Source of the DNA: Streptomyces sp. TG1A-8
GTDB lineage: Bacteria; Actinomycetota; Actinomycetes; Streptomycetales; Streptomycetaceae
Direction of reading: 5' to 3'
NCBI RefSeq assembly: GCF_030499535.1
Contig: NZ_JASTLB010000004.1
Coordinates: 248,001 to 312,000, forward strand
Length of the DNA stretch: 64,000 bases
Within the stretch, counting starts at the first letter, position 1. The number at the start of each line of letters is the position of its first letter. Shown one piece after another: positions 5,376 through 56,337 of the stretch. The notes under the pieces were generated by a model, which worked only from the letters and a program-made list of their open reading frames with translations, searched no databases and was not told where the DNA came from. The position numbers were made by a program, and so were the translations under genes.

Positions 5376-6343
5376 CGGACTGCCCCTTCAAGGGACGAGC
5401 GGTGTGCGGCCATGCGTTCCGCGGTACGCAGAGCGGCCGAGGTCATGATGTCGAGATTTCCGGCGTACGAGGGGAGGTAGTGCGCGGCACCCTCGACTTC
5501 CAGGAACACAGACACCTTCAGCGCTTTGTCGTCTACGGCTCCCGCGGGCAGCAGACCGCGCAGGGGGTCGTCGGGCGCGACAGCGTCGAACTGCACGTGC
5601 TGCTTGAGGCGGTAGCCGGGTACGTACGCACGGACCCTCTCCGCCATCTGCTCCACAGCGGTCCGCACGGCGTCCCGGTCGCAGTCGGAGACCAGGCAGT
5701 GCACGGTGTCACGCATGATCAGCGGCGGTTCGGCGGGATTGAGGACGATGATGGCCTTGCCGCGGGCGGCGCCGCCGACCCTCTCGATGGCGGAGGCGGT
5801 GGTCTCGGTGAACTCGTCGATGTTCGCCCGGGTGCCGGGGCCGGCCGAGCGGGAGGCGATCGAGGCGACGATCTCGCCGTAGTGCACCGGGGTGACGGCC
5901 GAGACCGCGCTGATCACTGGGATGGTCGCCTGACCGCCGCAGGTGACCATGTTGACGTTCGGGGCGTCGAGGTGGGCGTCACCGTTGACCGGGGGCACCA
6001 CGTAGGGGCCGAGGGCCGCCGGAGTGAGGTCGATGAGGGTGCGGCCGAGAGGGCGCAGCACCTCGTCGTGGTGCTGGTGGGCATGGGCCGACGTCGCGTC
6101 GAAGACGATGTCGACGTCAGTGAACTCATCCATCGCCAGCAGGCCTTCGATACCCTGGTGCGTGGTGGCGATTTTGAGGCGGCGGGCCCGGGCCAGGCCG
6201 TCCGAGTTGGGGTCGAGCCCTACCATCGCCACTGTCTCCAGGCTCTCGGAGAGCCGCAACACTTTGATCATGAGGTCGGTGCCGATGTTGCCCGAGCCGA
6301 TGATGGCAATCTTCGTGCGGACGCTGGAATCGCTGCCGCTCAC
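5372..6343 (-). CDS. mhpF: acetaldehyde dehydrogenase (acylating)
   Basis: It converts acetaldehyde from the aldolase to acetyl-CoA with NAD and CoA. The 323-residue sequence begins with a Rossmann motif, [16 protein letters not shown]. The catalytic cysteine is in [11 protein letters not shown], and the C-terminal half is typical of the DmpF/MhpF class ([17 protein letters not shown]). It overlaps its neighbours by four bases on both sides. Substrate channelling to and from the aldolase is known for this family. Confidence 0.95.
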
Positions 6344-7173
6344 TTGTGATCTCCCTCTGCCAAAGTTGCGAAGGCGTGCGGACCGAAGCTGACTCGTACC
6401 GAGCCGAGGTCGGAGATACGGGCTTCGAAGGAGTCACCGGGCGAGGCGTCCGCCATCGGCCCCAACGCGCCGGTCAGCACGATGTCACCGGCGCGCAGCG
6501 GATCTCCCGCTTCGGCCAGGGTCGACGCGAGCCACACGGCGGCGTTGAGCGGTCCCCCCAGGCAGTCGCTGCCACGCCCCTGTGAAACCTTCTCCCCGCC
6601 CTTGACGAGGGTCATCCGCATGGAACGCAGGTCGACGCCGGTCAGCGGCATGGGCGAGGCGCCGAGCACGAAGAGCCCCGACGAGGCATTGTCGGCTACT
6701 GTGTCGACGATGCCGATGTCCCAGTCGGCGATCCGGCTGTCGACGATCTCCAGGGCGGGCAGCGCGAAGTCGACGGCGCGCAGCACGTCGGCCACCGTGC
6801 TCTGCGCATGCGGCAGATCCCCGCCCAGGACGAGGGCGACCTCGGCTTCGATCTTAGGCTGCAGCAGTCGGCCTGCCGGAATCACGTCGCCGTCCAATAC
6901 CGCCATGTCGGACAGCAGGGCGCCGTAGTCCGGCTGCTCGATGCCGAGTTGACGCTGGACGGACGGCGATGTCAGACCGATTTTGCGGCCGACCACCCGG
7001 TGGCCCTGAGCGAGGCGGCGCTGGATGTTGACCTGCTGAACGGCGTAAGCGGCGGCGATGTCACCTTCGCCCAGACAATCGCGTACGGGAGGACACGGGG
7101 TGCTGGTTTGCGCCGCACGCGCGAGGGTGTCAGCCACCTCGTGGACCGCGTCGGGGGAGGTTCGGGTGCTCAC
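6340..7173 (-). CDS. mhpD: 2-hydroxypenta-2,4-dienoate hydratase
   Basis: It adds water to 2-hydroxypentadienoate to give 4-hydroxy-2-oxovalerate for the aldolase. It matches the hydratase/decarboxylase (FAH-like) family: [16 protein letters not shown] near the N-terminus, metal-binding [12 protein letters not shown], and the C-terminal GALGPM turn. GTG at 7173 is preferred as start because it overlaps the stop of a 16-codon leader frame that has a strong ribosome site. GTG at 7182 is the alternative. It overlaps mhpF by four bases. Confidence 0.92.
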
Positions 7174-48371: not shown

Positions 48372-49238
48372 GGGCGCTGTCACGTTGGCTGACCGGGTGG
48401 GATGATTTTCTGGTTGGTCGTGCTGGGAGGGGTCGTCCGTGGACAGCGCACCGCCGTCGCACCAGGGGCACCGGTACCCGGTCGGGATCGTCTCCCGCTG
48501 CGTGTGGCGGTACTTCCGCTTCCCGCTCGGCTTCCGCGAGGTCGAGGGGCTGATGCCCGAACGCGGCGTGGTCGTGTCCCACGAGACGGTCCGCCGCTGG
48601 TGCGCGAAGTTCGGGCAGTCCTGCGCCGACGGCCTGTGTCAAAGGCGGCCCCGGCCCGGGGACACCTGGCACCTGGACGAGGTCTTCACCAGGGTCAACG
48701 GCGAGCGGAAGTATCTGTGGCGGGCCCTCGACGCCGGCGGCAGCGTGCTCGACATCCCGGTCCAGAGCCGGCGGGACACCGCTGCGGCCAGGCGCTTGTT
48801 CCGCAAACCGCTCAAGAAGACCTGCCCGGTGCCGCAGGTGGTGGTCACCGGCAAGCTCCGTTCCCACGGCGCGGCCCACCACGAGGTCACGCCCTGCGTC
48901 GAGCACCGCCCGCACAAGAGCCTGAACAACCCGGCCGCGAACAGCCACCAGCCCACCCGGCAGCGCGAACGCGCGATGAAAGGCTTTTGCAGCGTGGGCG
49001 CAGCACAGCGATTCCTGTCCGGGTCCAGCGGCATCCCACCCCACTTCCCATCTCTGCCGCCATCTGATTGGCCGCCGCCCATCACCACGCCGAAACGACC
49101 CTCCGCTTCGCGATCTGGGATCAGGCCACCGGCGCCGCCCGCCAACCCGCCGAAGCCTGAACACGGAACCGGAACCCTGCCCCACCACACCCCGACGCGC
49201 CGTCAGGCACTTACACACCCACCAACGTGGCAGCGCCG
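48372..49238 (+). mobile_element. IS6-family element, copy C
   Basis: The left end gggcgctgtcacgttggct at 48372 and the right end ccaacgtggcagcgcc near 49223-49238 bound a full-size element of about 867 bp. It contains one transposase gene with a late frameshift. Confidence 0.8.
48439..49170 (+). pseudogene. IS6-family transposase with C-terminal frameshift
   Basis: GTG at 48439: MDSAPPSHQGHRYPVGIVSR, Asp in GDTWHLDEVFTRVNGERKYL, VLDIPVQSRRDTAAARRLFR and HQPTRQRERAMKGFCSVGAA are all in frame and include the DDE residues. Past residue 200 the native tail (ETTLRFAIWDQATGAARQPA) is found in another frame, so the tail is shifted. The catalytic core is intact, and limited activity cannot be excluded. 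Confidence 0.82.
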
Positions 49239-49477
49239 CCGGGCGAACTTGGCGACGACGACCTTGCGGTGCACCGATCCCAGATTTTCGGGCAGCGAGT
49301 CGTCCCCAATGAGCGTCGCCTGCCCTGCTGCTTCGGCACGGAGCGCGCAGCTCAACCCGACGAGTCAGTCGTACCGTCCAAGCCGCCCGCACCCTCTTGA
49401 CCTGCGACTACATAGGATAAAAGAGGATCACCGGTCGAGGCCGGCAAGAGAGCTCGCACAGAGCTGGGTCCCAGCTT

Positions 49478-50002
49478 TCAATCCTCATGCGACACACCAA
49501 GATCGTGGCGCATAGCGGTTCTCATAGTCCGGAGCATCTCCCAGACCTCGCACTGGGCTCGGGCCGCGGTCTCCATCGTTTCGCCTGGTTCGGGGGCACC
49601 GCGTTCGAGGCGTTTGACCTGGCCGTAGACCTTGTTCAGGGCTTGGTTGACGACACTGGCTCGCATGAGTACTTCTTCGGGAGCAATCATCTGCGCTTCG
49701 GAATATCGATCGCGGTGCGCGTTCTTGGCCTCCTCGAGTGCGTCGCTGTCGGTCTCCTCTGCGCCGCGCTCCCTCATGACGTGCAGGTGGCGGTTGAGCG
49801 CGGTAGTGAACTGCCGGGCATCTCGGTTGAGTTCCACATAGCAGGTGCGTCGCAGCGAACGGTTTTCGCGAACCTCCTCATGGTCTCGAACGAGCTCTAT
49901 CTCCAGGCGCTTCGCCCGTTCAGAGCCGCGCTGGGTGAGCAGCGCCCCTCCCAAGGTTCCTGCAACGCCTGCCACAGCGATGATCACTGAGCTGAGATCC
50001 AC
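49478..50002 (-). CDS. hypothetical protein with one N-terminal membrane segment
   Basis: GTG at 50002 gives 174 residues: an N-terminal hydrophobic helix (DLSSVIIAVAGVAGTLGGAL), then a charged, mostly helical region (RLEIELVRDHEEVRENRSLR, LNRHLHVMRERGAEETDSDA, EVWEMLRTMRTAMRHDLG). This is a common actinomycete pattern of membrane-anchored coiled-coil proteins without an assigned role. The open frame continues to 50992 only through an IS remnant. Confidence 0.7.
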   Translation of the reverse strand: MDLSSVIIAVAGVAGTLGGALLTQRGSERAKRLEIELVRDHEEVRENRSLRRTCYVELNRDARQFTTALNRHLHVMRERGAEETDSDALEEAKNAHRDRYSEAQMIAPEEVLMRASVVNQALNKVYGQVKRLERGAPEPGETMETAARAQCEVWEMLRTMRTAMRHDLGVSHED

Positions 50003-51141: not shown

Positions 51142-51180
51142 GGTTCGTGAGCTGATTACGCCGTAATCAGCTCACGAACC
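51142..51180. other. parS-like palindrome 1 (19-bp arms)
   Basis: GGTTCGTGAGCTGATTACG, one base, and its exact complement: 39 bases of perfect dyad symmetry, 131 bases before parA. The core GATTACGnCGTAATC is shared by three other sites in the locus. It is a candidate centromere and/or operator for ParB. Confidence 0.75.
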
Positions 51181-51202
51181 GTGCGGACAAGTGCCCAACA
51201 GC

Positions 51203-51227
51203 GGGGTGATTACGGCGTAATCACCCC
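51203..51227. other. parS-like palindrome 2 (12-bp arms)
   Basis: GGGGTGATTACG, one base, and its exact complement, 84 bases before parA and 22 bases after the first palindrome. It has the same GATTACGnCGTAATC core. Confidence 0.75.
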
Positions 51228-51310
51228 AGAGCTGAGCTGACGCCTCGCCAGTTCTACCTAGCTAACGTGTCGGGCTAACTTTTGATTGTAGACGTTAGTA
51301 TGGTGTCCTC

Positions 51311-52576
51311 ATGAGTTCGCCAGCTACCTCCAGCGGCCGCGAAAAGGTCGTCTCTAAGCTGCCGGGACGGCTCCGGCAGAGCCTCAAGGTCAGAGCCGCC
51401 GAGCACGGCATCGAAATTCAAACCGCAGTCGAACAGGGCATCGGGAACTGGTGCCGTCTAGGCTCCACCGTCACAACCATCGACACCTCCGGCGCTGACT
51501 CCTTCTCTACGTTCCTCCCCGTGGGCCAGTGGGAAGAGTTCCGGCAAATCGCAGCCGACCGGCGGGTGTCCCTCACCCAAGGGCTCGCTCAGTCCGTTCA
51601 GCTATGGCTGGACGCCAACCCCGCCCCGGACGTAGAACGCCCCGAGATCACTCGCCGTATCATCGTCTGCAATCAGAAGGGCGGCGTCGGCAAGACGGCC
51701 ATCACAGCGGGCCTCGGGGAAGCCCTAGCGGAAAACCCGCATGCCTTGCACCCCGTACGTGTAGCCAAAGCGCTTACTAAAGCCCTAAGGGCGAGCGACG
51801 CCCAAGGAAGCGAAGCAGCGTCGGCAGACGATCCGCTCGACATCGAGAACCTCCCTGGCCCGGGCCTGAGGGTGCTACTCGTCGACTTCGATCCCCAATG
51901 CCACCTCACCAACCAGCTCGGTGCCACTCCCCTGCCAATGAACGGTGACAGCCTCACCAACCACATGGCGGGCGACGCCAAGGGCGACCTCCGCGACCTC
52001 ATCGTCTCCATCGACGACGACGCCTTCGGTGGACGCCTTCACCTCCTGCCGGCATGCCACGACGCCTTCCTGCTCGACGTGCGTCTTTCCGCAGTGCGGG
52101 CCAGGGAAGCCGCCCTGGAGAGGGCTCTGGCGCCACTCGACGATGATTACGACGTAATCATCGTCGACTGTCCTCCGAGCCTCGGCCTGAGCATGGACGC
52201 CGCGGCCTACTACGGGCGCCGACGTAACGGAGAAAAGCCCGGGCAGTCCGGCGCACTGATCGTTGTACAAGCCGAAGACAGCTCTGCAGACGCCTACGAA
52301 CTACTCACCACGCAGATCGACGATCTGCGCGGCGACCTCCAGATCGACATCGACTACCTCGGTATCGTCGTCAACCTGTACGACTCGCGCCGTGGTTACA
52401 TCGCCACCTCTTCGCTGCAGGGCTGGGTCGACATAAAGGACCCACGGGTCGTCGGGCTCATCGGAGACCTCAAGGAACAGAAGGAAGCTGTCCGAGTGAA
52501 GCAACCCCTGCTGTCATACGCGCCTAAATCCCAGCAAGCCGTGGGGATGCGTGCTCTCGCCCGGGAGGTGCTGTGA
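51311..52576 (+). CDS. parA: plasmid partition ATPase ParA
   Basis: The 421-residue ATPase drives plasmid segregation on the nucleoid. The deviant Walker A is KGGVGKT at residues 123-129, Walker A-prime is VLLVDFDPQCHL, and Walker B is DVIIVDCPPSLG. The first 105 residues hold two similar ribbon-helix-helix-like segments (residues 16-50 and 69-103), suggesting site-specific DNA binding and autoregulation as in large type Ia ParAs. About 45 extra residues lie between Walker A and A-prime. ATG at 51311 is used. The stop overlaps the parB start (GTGA). A parS-like site lies inside the gene. Confidence 0.93.
   Translation: MSSPATSSGREKVVSKLPGRLRQSLKVRAAEHGIEIQTAVEQGIGNWCRLGSTVTTIDTSGADSFSTFLPVGQWEEFRQIAADRRVSLTQGLAQSVQLWLDANPAPDVERPEITRRIIVCNQKGGVGKTAITAGLGEALAENPHALHPVRVAKALTKALRASDAQGSEAASADDPLDIENLPGPGLRVLLVDFDPQCHLTNQLGATPLPMNGDSLTNHMAGDAKGDLRDLIVSIDDDAFGGRLHLLPACHDAFLLDVRLSAVRAREAALERALAPLDDDYDVIIVDCPPSLGLSMDAAAYYGRRRNGEKPGQSGALIVVQAEDSSADAYELLTTQIDDLRGDLQIDIDYLGIVVNLYDSRRGYIATSSLQGWVDIKDPRVVGLIGDLKEQKEAVRVKQPLLSYAPKSQQAVGMRALAREVL
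52142..52162. other. parS-like palindrome 3, inside parA
   Basis: GATGATTACG, A, CGTAATCATC: perfect ten-base arms. It encodes the residues leading into the ParA Walker B strand (YDVII), so symmetry is kept inside a conserved coding motif. Confidence 0.7.
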
Positions 52577-53763
52577 GCAAGGCAGACCAGCTCGGAGCCG
52601 GCCGCTTCGGCGGGGGAGTACGTCCCGTCAGCGCACGCCGCCAGGCCGTTGCAGCCGCGACTGGGGTCCCCACCGAAGGAGTCGCTCCTCCAACGAAGCT
52701 GCCTCCGGACCGCATCAGCCTCAACCCGGACAACCCGCGTTCAAGCCTCGGAGATCTCACCGACCTTGCCAACAGCCTAAAAGATCACGGCCAGAAGGTC
52801 GCTATCACGATCATGACCCGGGAGGCCTACGTAGGCGCCAACCCGAGCAAGGAAACCGAACTCGAACCGGACACCACCTACGTCGTCGTAGACGGAAGCA
52901 GCCGTCTTGCCGCAGCCAGGGAAGCCGGGCTGGCAACAGTCAAGGTGATGGTTGACGACGACCAGGGTGACGACGCCGAAAGCATCCTGGAGTCTGCTCT
53001 CGTCGCCAACATCCACCGGCAAGACCTCGACGAGATCGACGAAGCCCGCGCCCTGCAGCGTCTGCTCGCCATCCACGGAAGTCAGCGAGCCCTGGCCAAA
53101 CGCCTGCACCGCTCCCAGGGCTGGGTGTCACAACGCCTGGCTCTGCTCAGCCTCACCCCAGAGCTGCAAGCGCGCATCGGCGAGGAGCCGATCGACCTCT
53201 TGCGCGCAGTCGGCAATAAGCCCGCCCATGAACAGGAAGAAGCCCTGGCAGAGCTCAAGGCGGAACGGGCTCGGAAAGAGGAGGAAAGGGGACGCCTACG
53301 GAAGATCCAGCAGGAGGAGACCGCAGAGGGACAAGGGGACAGCACTCATACACCTCCTGAGGGGGACGCCGCACCCATCGACGCATCTGCAAGCGGTGCG
53401 CGGGAGGGAGAAGAAACCAGCCCTGCAGGTGATTACGACGTAATCACTGACAGCGCTGACACCGCCCTGACAGCTGCTGTCCCCGCACCAGTTTCGCCAT
53501 CGGAGGCGATCCCCGAACCACGTCTGCAGTCACCCACGCCAGAAGCAACTGAGGACACCGCCCGCGAGGTATCGCGCCCTCGTCAGGTCCCGTACGGCGA
53601 GCCTGGCCCCCTTGCCATGCTCCTGGACGCAAAGATCCCGTCGGATGAAATTTTCTTCGATCTCCTTCGCTTCCTTGGCGCGCGAGGCCTCAAGCGGAAC
53701 CCAGCCCGTCTCGGCGAACTAGCTCGCTCTCTCAGTGAGCAAGTCACTGCGAAGGTCGACTGA
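52573..53763 (+). CDS. parB: partition protein ParB
   Basis: The 396-residue DNA- and probably CTP-binding protein loads on parS and recruits ParA. The N-terminal ParB/Spo0J domain has ISLNPDNPRSSLGDLTDLAN, box GSSRLAA at residues 108-114 and ANIHR at 145-149, which correspond to the CTP-binding motifs. A helix-turn-helix follows at 168-192 (GSQRALAKRLHRSQGWVSQR). A long acidic, variable linker leads to a C-terminal dimerisation-like domain. GTG at 52573 is coupled to the parA stop. The fourth parS-like palindrome lies in the linker-coding part. Confidence 0.93.
   Translation: MSKADQLGAGRFGGGVRPVSARRQAVAAATGVPTEGVAPPTKLPPDRISLNPDNPRSSLGDLTDLANSLKDHGQKVAITIMTREAYVGANPSKETELEPDTTYVVVDGSSRLAAAREAGLATVKVMVDDDQGDDAESILESALVANIHRQDLDEIDEARALQRLLAIHGSQRALAKRLHRSQGWVSQRLALLSLTPELQARIGEEPIDLLRAVGNKPAHEQEEALAELKAERARKEEERGRLRKIQQEETAEGQGDSTHTPPEGDAAPIDASASGAREGEETSPAGDYDVITDSADTALTAAVPAPVSPSEAIPEPRLQSPTPEATEDTAREVSRPRQVPYGEPGPLAMLLDAKIPSDEIFFDLLRFLGARGLKRNPARLGELARSLSEQVTAKVD
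53429..53447. other. parS-like palindrome 4, inside parB
   Basis: GTGATTACG, A, CGTAATCAC: perfect nine-base arms within the variable linker-coding region, where the protein sequence is not expected to be conserved. Confidence 0.7.
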
Positions 53764-53832
53764 GATCATCCAATAAGAGAGCCGGCGTCCTTGCAGGGCG
53801 CTGGCCCTCTGGTACTACTGAGTTTGTCGGCG

Positions 53833-54618
53833 GGCGTTGTCACGTTGTTGGGTGTGTGGGCGTTTGACGGTGTGTCGAGGTGTGGTGGGGCCGGGTTCCG
53901 GGCCGTGGCGGGTCGGTCCGTGATGCCGGTGATCTGCTCCCAGATGGTGAAGCGGACGGTCGTTTCGGCTCGGTAGTGAGGTGCGGGCATCGGGTGGCGA
54001 CGGGGCCGGAAGTGGGGTGAGATGCCACGGAACGCGGACAGGGACCTCTGCGCCCCGCCCACGGAGCGGAAGCCCTTCATAACCCGTTCGCGTTGCCTCG
54101 TCGGCTGGTGGCTGTTCTCGGCCTGGTTGTTCGGTCTCTTGTGCGAGCGGTGCTCGACGGCGGTCATGGCCTCGTGGTGGGCGGCGCTGCAGGAGCGGAG
54201 CTTGTCGGTGACGATCACCCTCGGCACTGCCCGGGTCCTCGTCATCAGCCTGCGGAGGAACCCTCCGGCTGCGGCCTTGTCGCGGCGGTTGTGCACGAGG
54301 ATGTCGAGGGGCGTTGCCGTCCCGGTCCACAGCCCGCCACCGATACCTCTGCTCGCCGTTGATTTTGATGAAGACTTCGTCGAGGTGCCATGTGCCGCCG
54401 GGCCGGGGACGCCTGCGGCGAAGCCCGTTCGCGTAGGCCTGCCCGAACTTCCGACACCACCGTCGCACGGTCTCGTACGAGACGATCACGCCGCGCCCGG
54501 GCATCAGTTCCCCGACCTCGCGGCAGGACAGCGGGAAGCGGAAGTACAGCCACACGCAGGGGGAGACCACCTCGACCGGGTACCGGTGCCCCTTGTACGA
54601 CGGCGACGCGACCTCCAC
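53833..54618 (-). pseudogene. IS6-family transposase, frameshifted
   Basis: The start at 54618 gives MEVASPSYKGHRYPVEVVSP, then Asp in GGTWHLDEVFIKINGEQRYR. After VDRDGN the frame slips and the native sequence continues in another frame: HNRRDKAAAGGFLRRLMTRT, VIVTDKLRSCSAAHHEAMTA, RVMKGFRSVGGAQRSLSAFR. It is closely related to copy B at 38796-39185. Confidence 0.83.
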
Positions 54619-55922: not shown

Positions 55923-55950
55923 CTGAGGTACGAAAAATTTCGTACCTCAG
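55923..55950. promoter_or_regulatory. operator dyad 1 (13-bp arms)
   Basis: CTGAGGTACGAAA, two bases, and its exact complement, in the divergent region. It shares AGGTACGA/TCGTACCT with the second dyad. Likely binding site of the adjacent ArsR-type regulator. Confidence 0.75.
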
Positions 55951-55961
55951 TGGAGCACACC

Positions 55962-55991
55962 CTTCAGGTACGATTCAAGTCGTACCTGAAG
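55962..55991. promoter_or_regulatory. operator dyad 2 (12-bp arms)
   Basis: CTTCAGGTACGA, six bases, and its exact complement, ending ten bases before the regulator start. It overlaps the probable promoter or ribosome site of the regulator, so repression of both genes is expected. Confidence 0.75.
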
Positions 55992-56001
55992 GGGGTGCCG
56001 C

Positions 56002-56337
56002 GTGGCCGGGAAGAACATGGTCGGCCCGGAGACCGATGTGCTCGATCTGGGTGCGGTGTTTCGCGCCCTCGCCGACGAGCACCGTCGTTCGGTGATGACG
56101 AAGTTGGCCGCCGACCGCAGCGACAACGAGCGGGGGTGCAACTCGTTCGATCTTCCGATCTCGAAGCAGACCCAGACCCACCACTTTCGGGTCCTACGCG
56201 AGGCAGGTCTCATTGACGAGATCGACTACGGCAACCGCAAGGGCATCCGACTACGACGCGCGGACATTGAGAAGAGATTCCCCGGGCTGCTCGCGCTCCT
56301 GGAGGCAGAGTCTCAGGGCGGTACCGCTCCTCGCTGA
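56002..56337 (+). CDS. ArsR-family transcriptional regulator
   Basis: GTG at 56002 follows AAGGGGG. The 111-residue winged-helix protein has VFRALADEHRRSVMTKLAAD, the recognition helix segment SKQTQTHHFRVLREAGLIDE and the wing IDYGNRKGIRLRR. It lacks the Cys metal ligands of metal sensors apart from one Cys, so a small organic ligand is more likely. It faces the FAD monooxygenase gene across two matching dyads. Confidence 0.9.
   Translation: MAGKNMVGPETDVLDLGAVFRALADEHRRSVMTKLAADRSDNERGCNSFDLPISKQTQTHHFRVLREAGLIDEIDYGNRKGIRLRRADIEKRFPGLLALLEAESQGGTAPR

Follow-up and report, generated by a model that had tools for sequence, protein, structure and literature searches.

Partition systems of the kind analysed here have been described for SCP1 of Streptomyces coelicolor A3(2), whose parABS1 locus was characterised by ChIP-seq, binding and stability assays (NAR, June 2026; PMC13245405). 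In the parts of that paper considered here, ParB1 binds CTP and three inverted repeats of 13 bp that lie around parAB1, one of them in parB1; it gives ChIP-seq enrichment over 15–20 kb and is needed for stability. The centromere role of such sites is thus already known, because of these binding, ChIP-seq and stability data. For Caulobacter ParB and Noc, the sections consulted assign the reading of base A1 of the half-site to Q173 and of C6 to R201, with K179 or K184 being permissive (PMC7383237). A parS within a gene is known from parT of SCP2 (PMC12260392), and in repABC replicons parS lies in or near the operon, where positive selection for the site has been hypothesised even in coding sequence 3′ of repC (PMC9040568). 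The parts considered of two further papers (PMC8743542, PMC5450999) contain nothing on the core described below.

The present locus resembles SCP1 parABS1 as an HTH-ParB type I system of a large Streptomyces plasmid, with 13-bp repeats around parAB and one in parB. The six CTP-pocket residues of SCP1 ParB1 named in the section considered all match: N54, R56, G108, S109, S110 and R111 of ParB1 are found in this ParB by residue and number. It differs in that three sites were reported for SCP1 and four are present here, and the parts of the SCP1 paper examined mention no parS1 within parA1, whereas one copy lies in parA here. The preliminary description had called the set a candidate new one; it does differ from the chromosomal parS, but the SCP1 relative had been characterised earlier (PMC13245405). 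SCP2 ParATS also belongs to a Streptomyces plasmid and has parS inside the gene for the protein that binds it, although ParT, according to the sections seen, has no CTPase domain and an 18-bp site, whereas ParB here has ParB_N (PMC12260392). The repABC systems are of another family and consensus, and the passages considered hold no parS in the Walker B codons of parA (PMC9040568). The set, of the parABS1 type, is ordinary in kind and informative in detail.

The parAB locus, its dyads and their recurrence

The window, a stretch of 64,000 nucleotides, lies on contig C4 (518,462 bp) of a genome of 7,664,205 bp in four contigs, and most database relatives of the locus, among the matches listed, are from Streptomyces. 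The genes and dyads are as follows, in window coordinates (dyads carry no strand):

51142..51180, candidate parS copy 1, 5′ of parA; perfect dyad with 19-bp arms
51203..51227, candidate parS copy 2, 5′ of parA; 12-bp arms
51311..52576, + strand, parA, a 421-aa Walker-type ATPase (AAA_31, CbiA)
52137..52167, candidate parS copy 3, within parA; 15-bp arms
52573..53763, + strand, parB, 396 aa, ParB_N and HTH_ParB
53429..53447, candidate parS copy 4, within parB; 9-bp arms, in frame as DYDVI

The 3′ end of parA and the 5′ end of parB share four bases. ParA has the domain matches of a nucleotide-binding ATPase (AAA_31, E 3e-22; CbiA, E 5e-14). ParB exceeds the cut-off for HTH_ParB (E 3e-7) and falls a little below it for ParB_N (E 1.5e-5; 25.4 bits, cut-off 26.3), and its sequence also matches ParB and Noc chains in the PDB. 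Two putative IS-like transposase ORFs, alike and in opposite orientation, flank parAB (48439–49515, + strand; 53815–54618, − strand). Further downstream, two operator-like inverted repeats on GGTACGA..TCGTACC (55925–55992) separate an ORF on the − strand from a small one on the + strand (56002–56337), putatively named FAD-monooxygenase-like and regulator-like, respectively.

Searches of the window and the genome confirmed the four exact dyads that the preliminary description had placed at or in parAB. GATTACGNCGTAATC has four exact copies in the window, all at or in parAB and two of them in genes (one in parA, one in parB), compared with a mean of 0.04 per window in shuffled controls, where none of 100 shuffles reached four. 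The claim that the window holds no further copies stands with up to two mismatches allowed. Arm lengths of 19, 12 and 9 bp had been given correctly, but the third dyad has 15-bp arms, not 10. Many core copies scattered through the genome away from parAB had been named as grounds for rejecting the centromere role, and the role passes this test: with up to two mismatches there are 19 places, namely the four exact copies at the parAB locus of C4 and 15 others, all on C1 and each with exactly two mismatches, so that no copy with zero or one mismatch lies away from parAB in the 7.66-Mb genome. The core was also rightly described as unlike the chromosomal parS. With up to two mismatches, TGTTTCACGTGAAACA occurs at 17 places, all on C1 and within about 0.2 Mb, and a chromosomal ParB gene lies among these dyads; none occurs on C4, and the present set is not of the chromosomal ParB–parS type. 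Both sets of dyads are clustered in one replicon region, but their sequence and spacing differ.

Recurrence was assessed in 84 parAB loci, comprising, of 142 genome loci ranked by the similarity of their ParA, the best 80 (selected independently of site presence), three plasmid loci (L111, L116 and L117) and the window. The 13-bp core ATTACGNCGTAAT is present in 67 of the 84, the window counted: within 400 bp 5′ of parA in 60, in parB in 53 and, from an alignment-based count, in parA in 34, the in-parA copy being absent in the other 50. It is also found on a Pseudonocardia plasmid with a 53% identical ParB, and a 387-kb plasmid of S. anthocyanicus has dyads of exactly 13 bp 5′ of parA and in parB. 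In an evenly drawn sample of the genus, the 15-mer occurs in 25 of 295 genomes, and the backwards control pattern in none of the rows. The centromere role, which had been proposed from context, is supported by this return of the same dyad to the same places in relatives.

Seventeen of the 84 loci lack ATTACGNCGTAAT. Seven have a different repeated dyad, with half-sites ATTACC (three loci), ATAACG, ATCACG or TTAACC around one shared centre base, or the even-spaced TTACCGCGGTAA; the other ten, whose ParBs have the matching Q182-G183 and D/E208, have no core or other repeated dyad in the stretch around parAB, which speaks against the centromere reading. In the genus sample of 295, ATTACC-type sites occur in two genomes, of which one has a cluster. 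We searched 18 of the genomes in full. Four have a switched core; of the other 14, ten lack a nearby site, three have sites, and L097 has them only at a distance of ~2 kb. ATTACGNCGTAAT was found in none of the four and in all 14, at 2–8 copies each, a result partly explained by L150 and L153, each of which is a second parAB locus in its genome; for two of the ten loci, most genomic copies belong to such a second locus. Loss of parS from the loci without nearby sites was considered and rejected, as their genomes have the core elsewhere, partly at a second parAB. Ten regions with core clusters were read, a count that leaves out one siteless 1-kb stretch of 11: seven are free of parAB, one ends with its contig in a fragment of parA and two are the second parAB loci. 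Clusters of 4–6 ATTACGNCGTAAT sites apart from a complete parAB are seen in L144–L149, L151 and L152; several share a conserved segment of ~850 bp near the sites, and some adjoin a putative primase/polymerase-like ORF. In S. globisporus C-1027 plasmid SGLP1 (NZ_CP013739.1, L130), an annotated viomycin phosphotransferase gene lies ~1 kb from the related parAB.

Taken with the SCP1 precedent, the four dyads very probably make up a parS centromere set on this 518-kb plasmid-like replicon, belonging to a type-I HTH-ParB partition system like SCP1 parABS1. The repeated dyads are confined to the parAB region here, with exceptions among the relatives. From the biology of the family, a ParB dimer would read the two half-sites with its helix-turn-helix, close as a CTP clamp and slide onto adjacent DNA, and ParA would move the ParB–parS complex. 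The upstream dyads may also regulate parAB, and the copies in parA and parB would be in-gene parS.

ParB residues and half-site bases

Across related loci, differing DNA-contact residues of ParB go with a differing repeated dyad. We compared the 84 loci with 18 from PLSDB and the two other par loci on C4, numbering the half-site from base 1 with base 0 just outside the core. The codons concerned in the present parB are:

53086..53088, + strand, R172, which goes with G at base 0
53116..53121, + strand, Q182-G183, which go with A1 and T3
53194..53196, + strand, D208, which goes with G6 and is placed at Noc R201 / Caulobacter ParB G201

Q182 aligns with Noc Q173, and R188 with K179. D208 was assigned to position 201 by the conserved R211, equivalent to R204, together with a two-residue deletion in the family alignment; the ungapped pairwise HMMER alignment to Noc puts it two positions off 201.

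Among sites of the 13-bp kind, residue 182 is Q with A1, P with T1 and, in one locus, S with C1. G183 goes with T3, P or A at 183 (followed by W, Y or L at 184) with A3, and S, N or A at 183 (followed by T or S) with C3. At 208, D, E or A accompanies G6, K accompanies C6 (five loci) and S accompanies T6 (one locus). In the even-spaced kind (L109, L142 and the 87-kb locus of C4), R goes with C6, and base 1, with A, K or R at 182, falls outside the rule. Several of these residue classes are represented by one locus, and relatedness means that the loci are not independent observations; the K/R–C6 and P/A–A3 pairings recur on different ParB backgrounds. Base 0 follows residue 172: G is the majority flank base in all 32 ATTACG loci with sites and R172, while in all 42 with another residue it is T (39) or C (3). 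Counted over half-sites outside parA, the 264 of R172 loci have G in 98%, and the 202 of T172 loci have T in 83% and C in 14%. In other core kinds, H, A or G at 172 also goes with flank G.

The pairing of K or R at 208 with C6 is in line with the published Noc pairings Q173–A1 and R201–C6. As in the parts seen of that work, Q at 173 goes with A1 and K/R at 201 with C6; the difference is that the Noc and Caulobacter site is even, whereas this is an odd 13-bp dyad whose arms share a single centre base, and bases 0 and 3 with residues 172 and 183 are added here (PMC7383237). Among the matches listed, the open-licence literature held no ParB–parS code for these plasmids, and a code at four base positions looks to be new. 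Two loci were searched for predicted sites: L126, where no repeated dyad had been found, has one ATTACG site 104 bp 5′ of parA, and in L139, for which two cores were tried, ATCACG lies in parB and ~2.3 kb 5′ of parA and ATAACG has no exact copy. For SCP1, the parS1 core is predicted to be ATTACGNCGTAAT, and parS2, whose ParB has G109-H110-R111-R112, to be of the ATCACGNCGTGAT or ATAACGNCGTTAT kind.

The two further loci of C4 bear on the same correspondence. The contig has three ParB genes, at 300, 488 and 87 kb, each beside a parA, with ATTACGNCGTAAT (four copies), TTAACGNCGTTAA (one) and TTGTCCGCGGACAA (two) as their respective candidate parS. The additional pairs (no strand assigned) are:

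C4:487972-490082, second ParAB pair (L118), candidate parS TTAACGNCGTTAA once, inside parB
C4:86594-89043, third ParAB pair (L119), candidate parS TTGTCCGCGGACAA twice, inside parB

The forecast for the 488-kb ParB (P182, A183, E208) is TTAACGNCGTTAA, which has exactly one copy on C4, inside that parB, and one other exact copy in the genome, on C1. With up to one mismatch, TTGTCCGCGGACAA was found nowhere else in the genome (the backwards control pattern gave one match). The 87-kb parA seems to lack the usual N-terminus, beside IS-like residues, and that system may therefore be inactive. Three ParAB systems, each with a private candidate parS, on one 518-kb replicon look to be new; among PLSDB Streptomyces plasmids, dual systems were reported as the only multiple combination in the parts of the survey considered (PMC13245405).

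Sites within the coding sequences

Two dyads had been placed in coding DNA, one of them across the Walker B region of ParA, and the genes bear this out. The word within parA is:

52145-52159, no strand assigned, D279-Y280-D281-V282-I283 as GAT TAC GAC GTA ATC, followed by IVDCPPS

Among 104 loci, parB has 66 complete ATTACG sites, every one of them read in the same frame, whereas six of 11 in-parB sites of the ATCACG kind lie in another; in L054, the TAA of an out-of-frame ATTACG site is the parB stop. In frame 0, ATTACG gives a TAA stop, and in frame 2 it gives TTA, a codon that is rare in Streptomyces; for this reason only one frame suits the core. It reads x-Y-x-V-I.

Selection on the in-gene sites, as the preliminary description had suggested, is supported, but a phylogenetically corrected test was of low power and not significant. 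The conserved DYDVI of ParA nearly spells the core already, being two synonymous changes away from it with common codons, so the in-parA copy could be a by-product of protein conservation and codon drift that does not function as parS. This fits the rare codons of other columns (Val 262, Val 257 and Asp 377), the independent-pairs test of the codon association (eight pairs, median p 0.22) and the three loci without R172 that retain GAT (L071, L104 and L116). However, GAT and GTA are enriched in the site columns, at 44 of 76 and 37 of 84 compared with 299 of 2974 Asp and 157 of 2537 Val codons elsewhere in the genes, and both rare-codon changes occur together in 36 of the 84 loci and in none of the seven with a switched parS. 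The site also follows ParB, being present in 28 of 33 loci with R172 and six of 51 others, and well-supported branches of a ParA tree, quickly built and without bootstrap, force at least six changes in it. Finally, three of six site-bearing ParAs paired with a non-R172 ParB, and none of 28 paired with R172, have Tyr (TAT) in place of Asp (GAT) (p 0.003, uncorrected). Tyr279 is found in only these three of 84 ParAs, all with a site and a T172 ParB, two being sister rows. Our reading of the codons is that flank G would come free in Asp (GAT), while flank T would demand Tyr (TAT). Weighing both sides, we consider a mere by-product unlikely, and an in-gene parS under selection the better reading of the parA copy.

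A parS in the Walker B codons of ParA looks to be new, and nothing on it was found in the open-licence literature among the matches listed. We lean, by a modest margin of confidence, towards a general rule for actinobacterial plasmid ParBs, in which the residues equivalent to 163, 173, 174 and 201 would set half-site bases 0, 1, 3 and 6 and make parS predictable. The centromere would then have been written repeatedly into the codons before the ParA Walker B Asp, at a frequency set by the compatibility with Asp of the flank base that ParB requires; some lineages would have replaced this Asp by Tyr, the protein sequence giving way to that of the centromere.

Operators, long arms and the centromere reading

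The dyads could instead be operators only, through which ParB or another regulator controls parAB while the centromere lies elsewhere. The cores of the upstream dyads begin 102 bp (copy 2) and 156 bp 5′ of the parA start, an operator-like place. That copies lie within parA and deep in parB, and that relatives have clusters apart from parAB, suits a centromere better, and SCP1 ParB1, in the parts of the paper considered, binds such repeats and spreads over 15–20 kb (PMC13245405). The regulatory and centromere roles may coexist; a purely operator function is very improbable.

Some dyads extend into long perfect palindromes. The first three or four flank bases belong to the ParB motif, and among the 84 and the PLSDB loci, 33 of 232 non-coding core sites extend perfectly for at least 8 bp beyond the core, compared with 10 of 637 other odd palindromes of the same loci; beyond the first mismatch, complementarity of the arms drops at once to near background. 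Once an extension has reached 4 bp, the shares reaching 8 bp are not far apart (33 of 93 core sites and 10 of 44 others), and we rejected long perfect arms as a signature specific to parS. Two of 13 chromosomal parS extend 7–10 bp. The long dyads could, for instance, have arisen by templated copying of one arm. The close relatives L090 and L095 share a dyad (~6341–6373) with A in one and T in the other as the single centre base and identical arms in the stretch compared. A role as transcription terminators or mobile-element ends, which arms of up to 31 bp (L048) and the putative IS-like ORF adjoining parB might suggest, is scarcely credible, given a constant 13-bp core with variable outer arms, arms no more GC-rich than their flanks (0.66 vs 0.70), two of four sites inside genes and a flank base that follows ParB residue 172.

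With the centromere reading preferred, the hundreds of uncharacterised par loci of Streptomyces plasmids amount to a natural experiment on centromere specificity. Plasmid parS would be predictable from ParB, a matter of relevance to the coexistence of several partition systems within a cell or plasmid. At the site within parA, the demands of DNA-binding specificity seem to conflict with those of protein coding over a shared set of bases.
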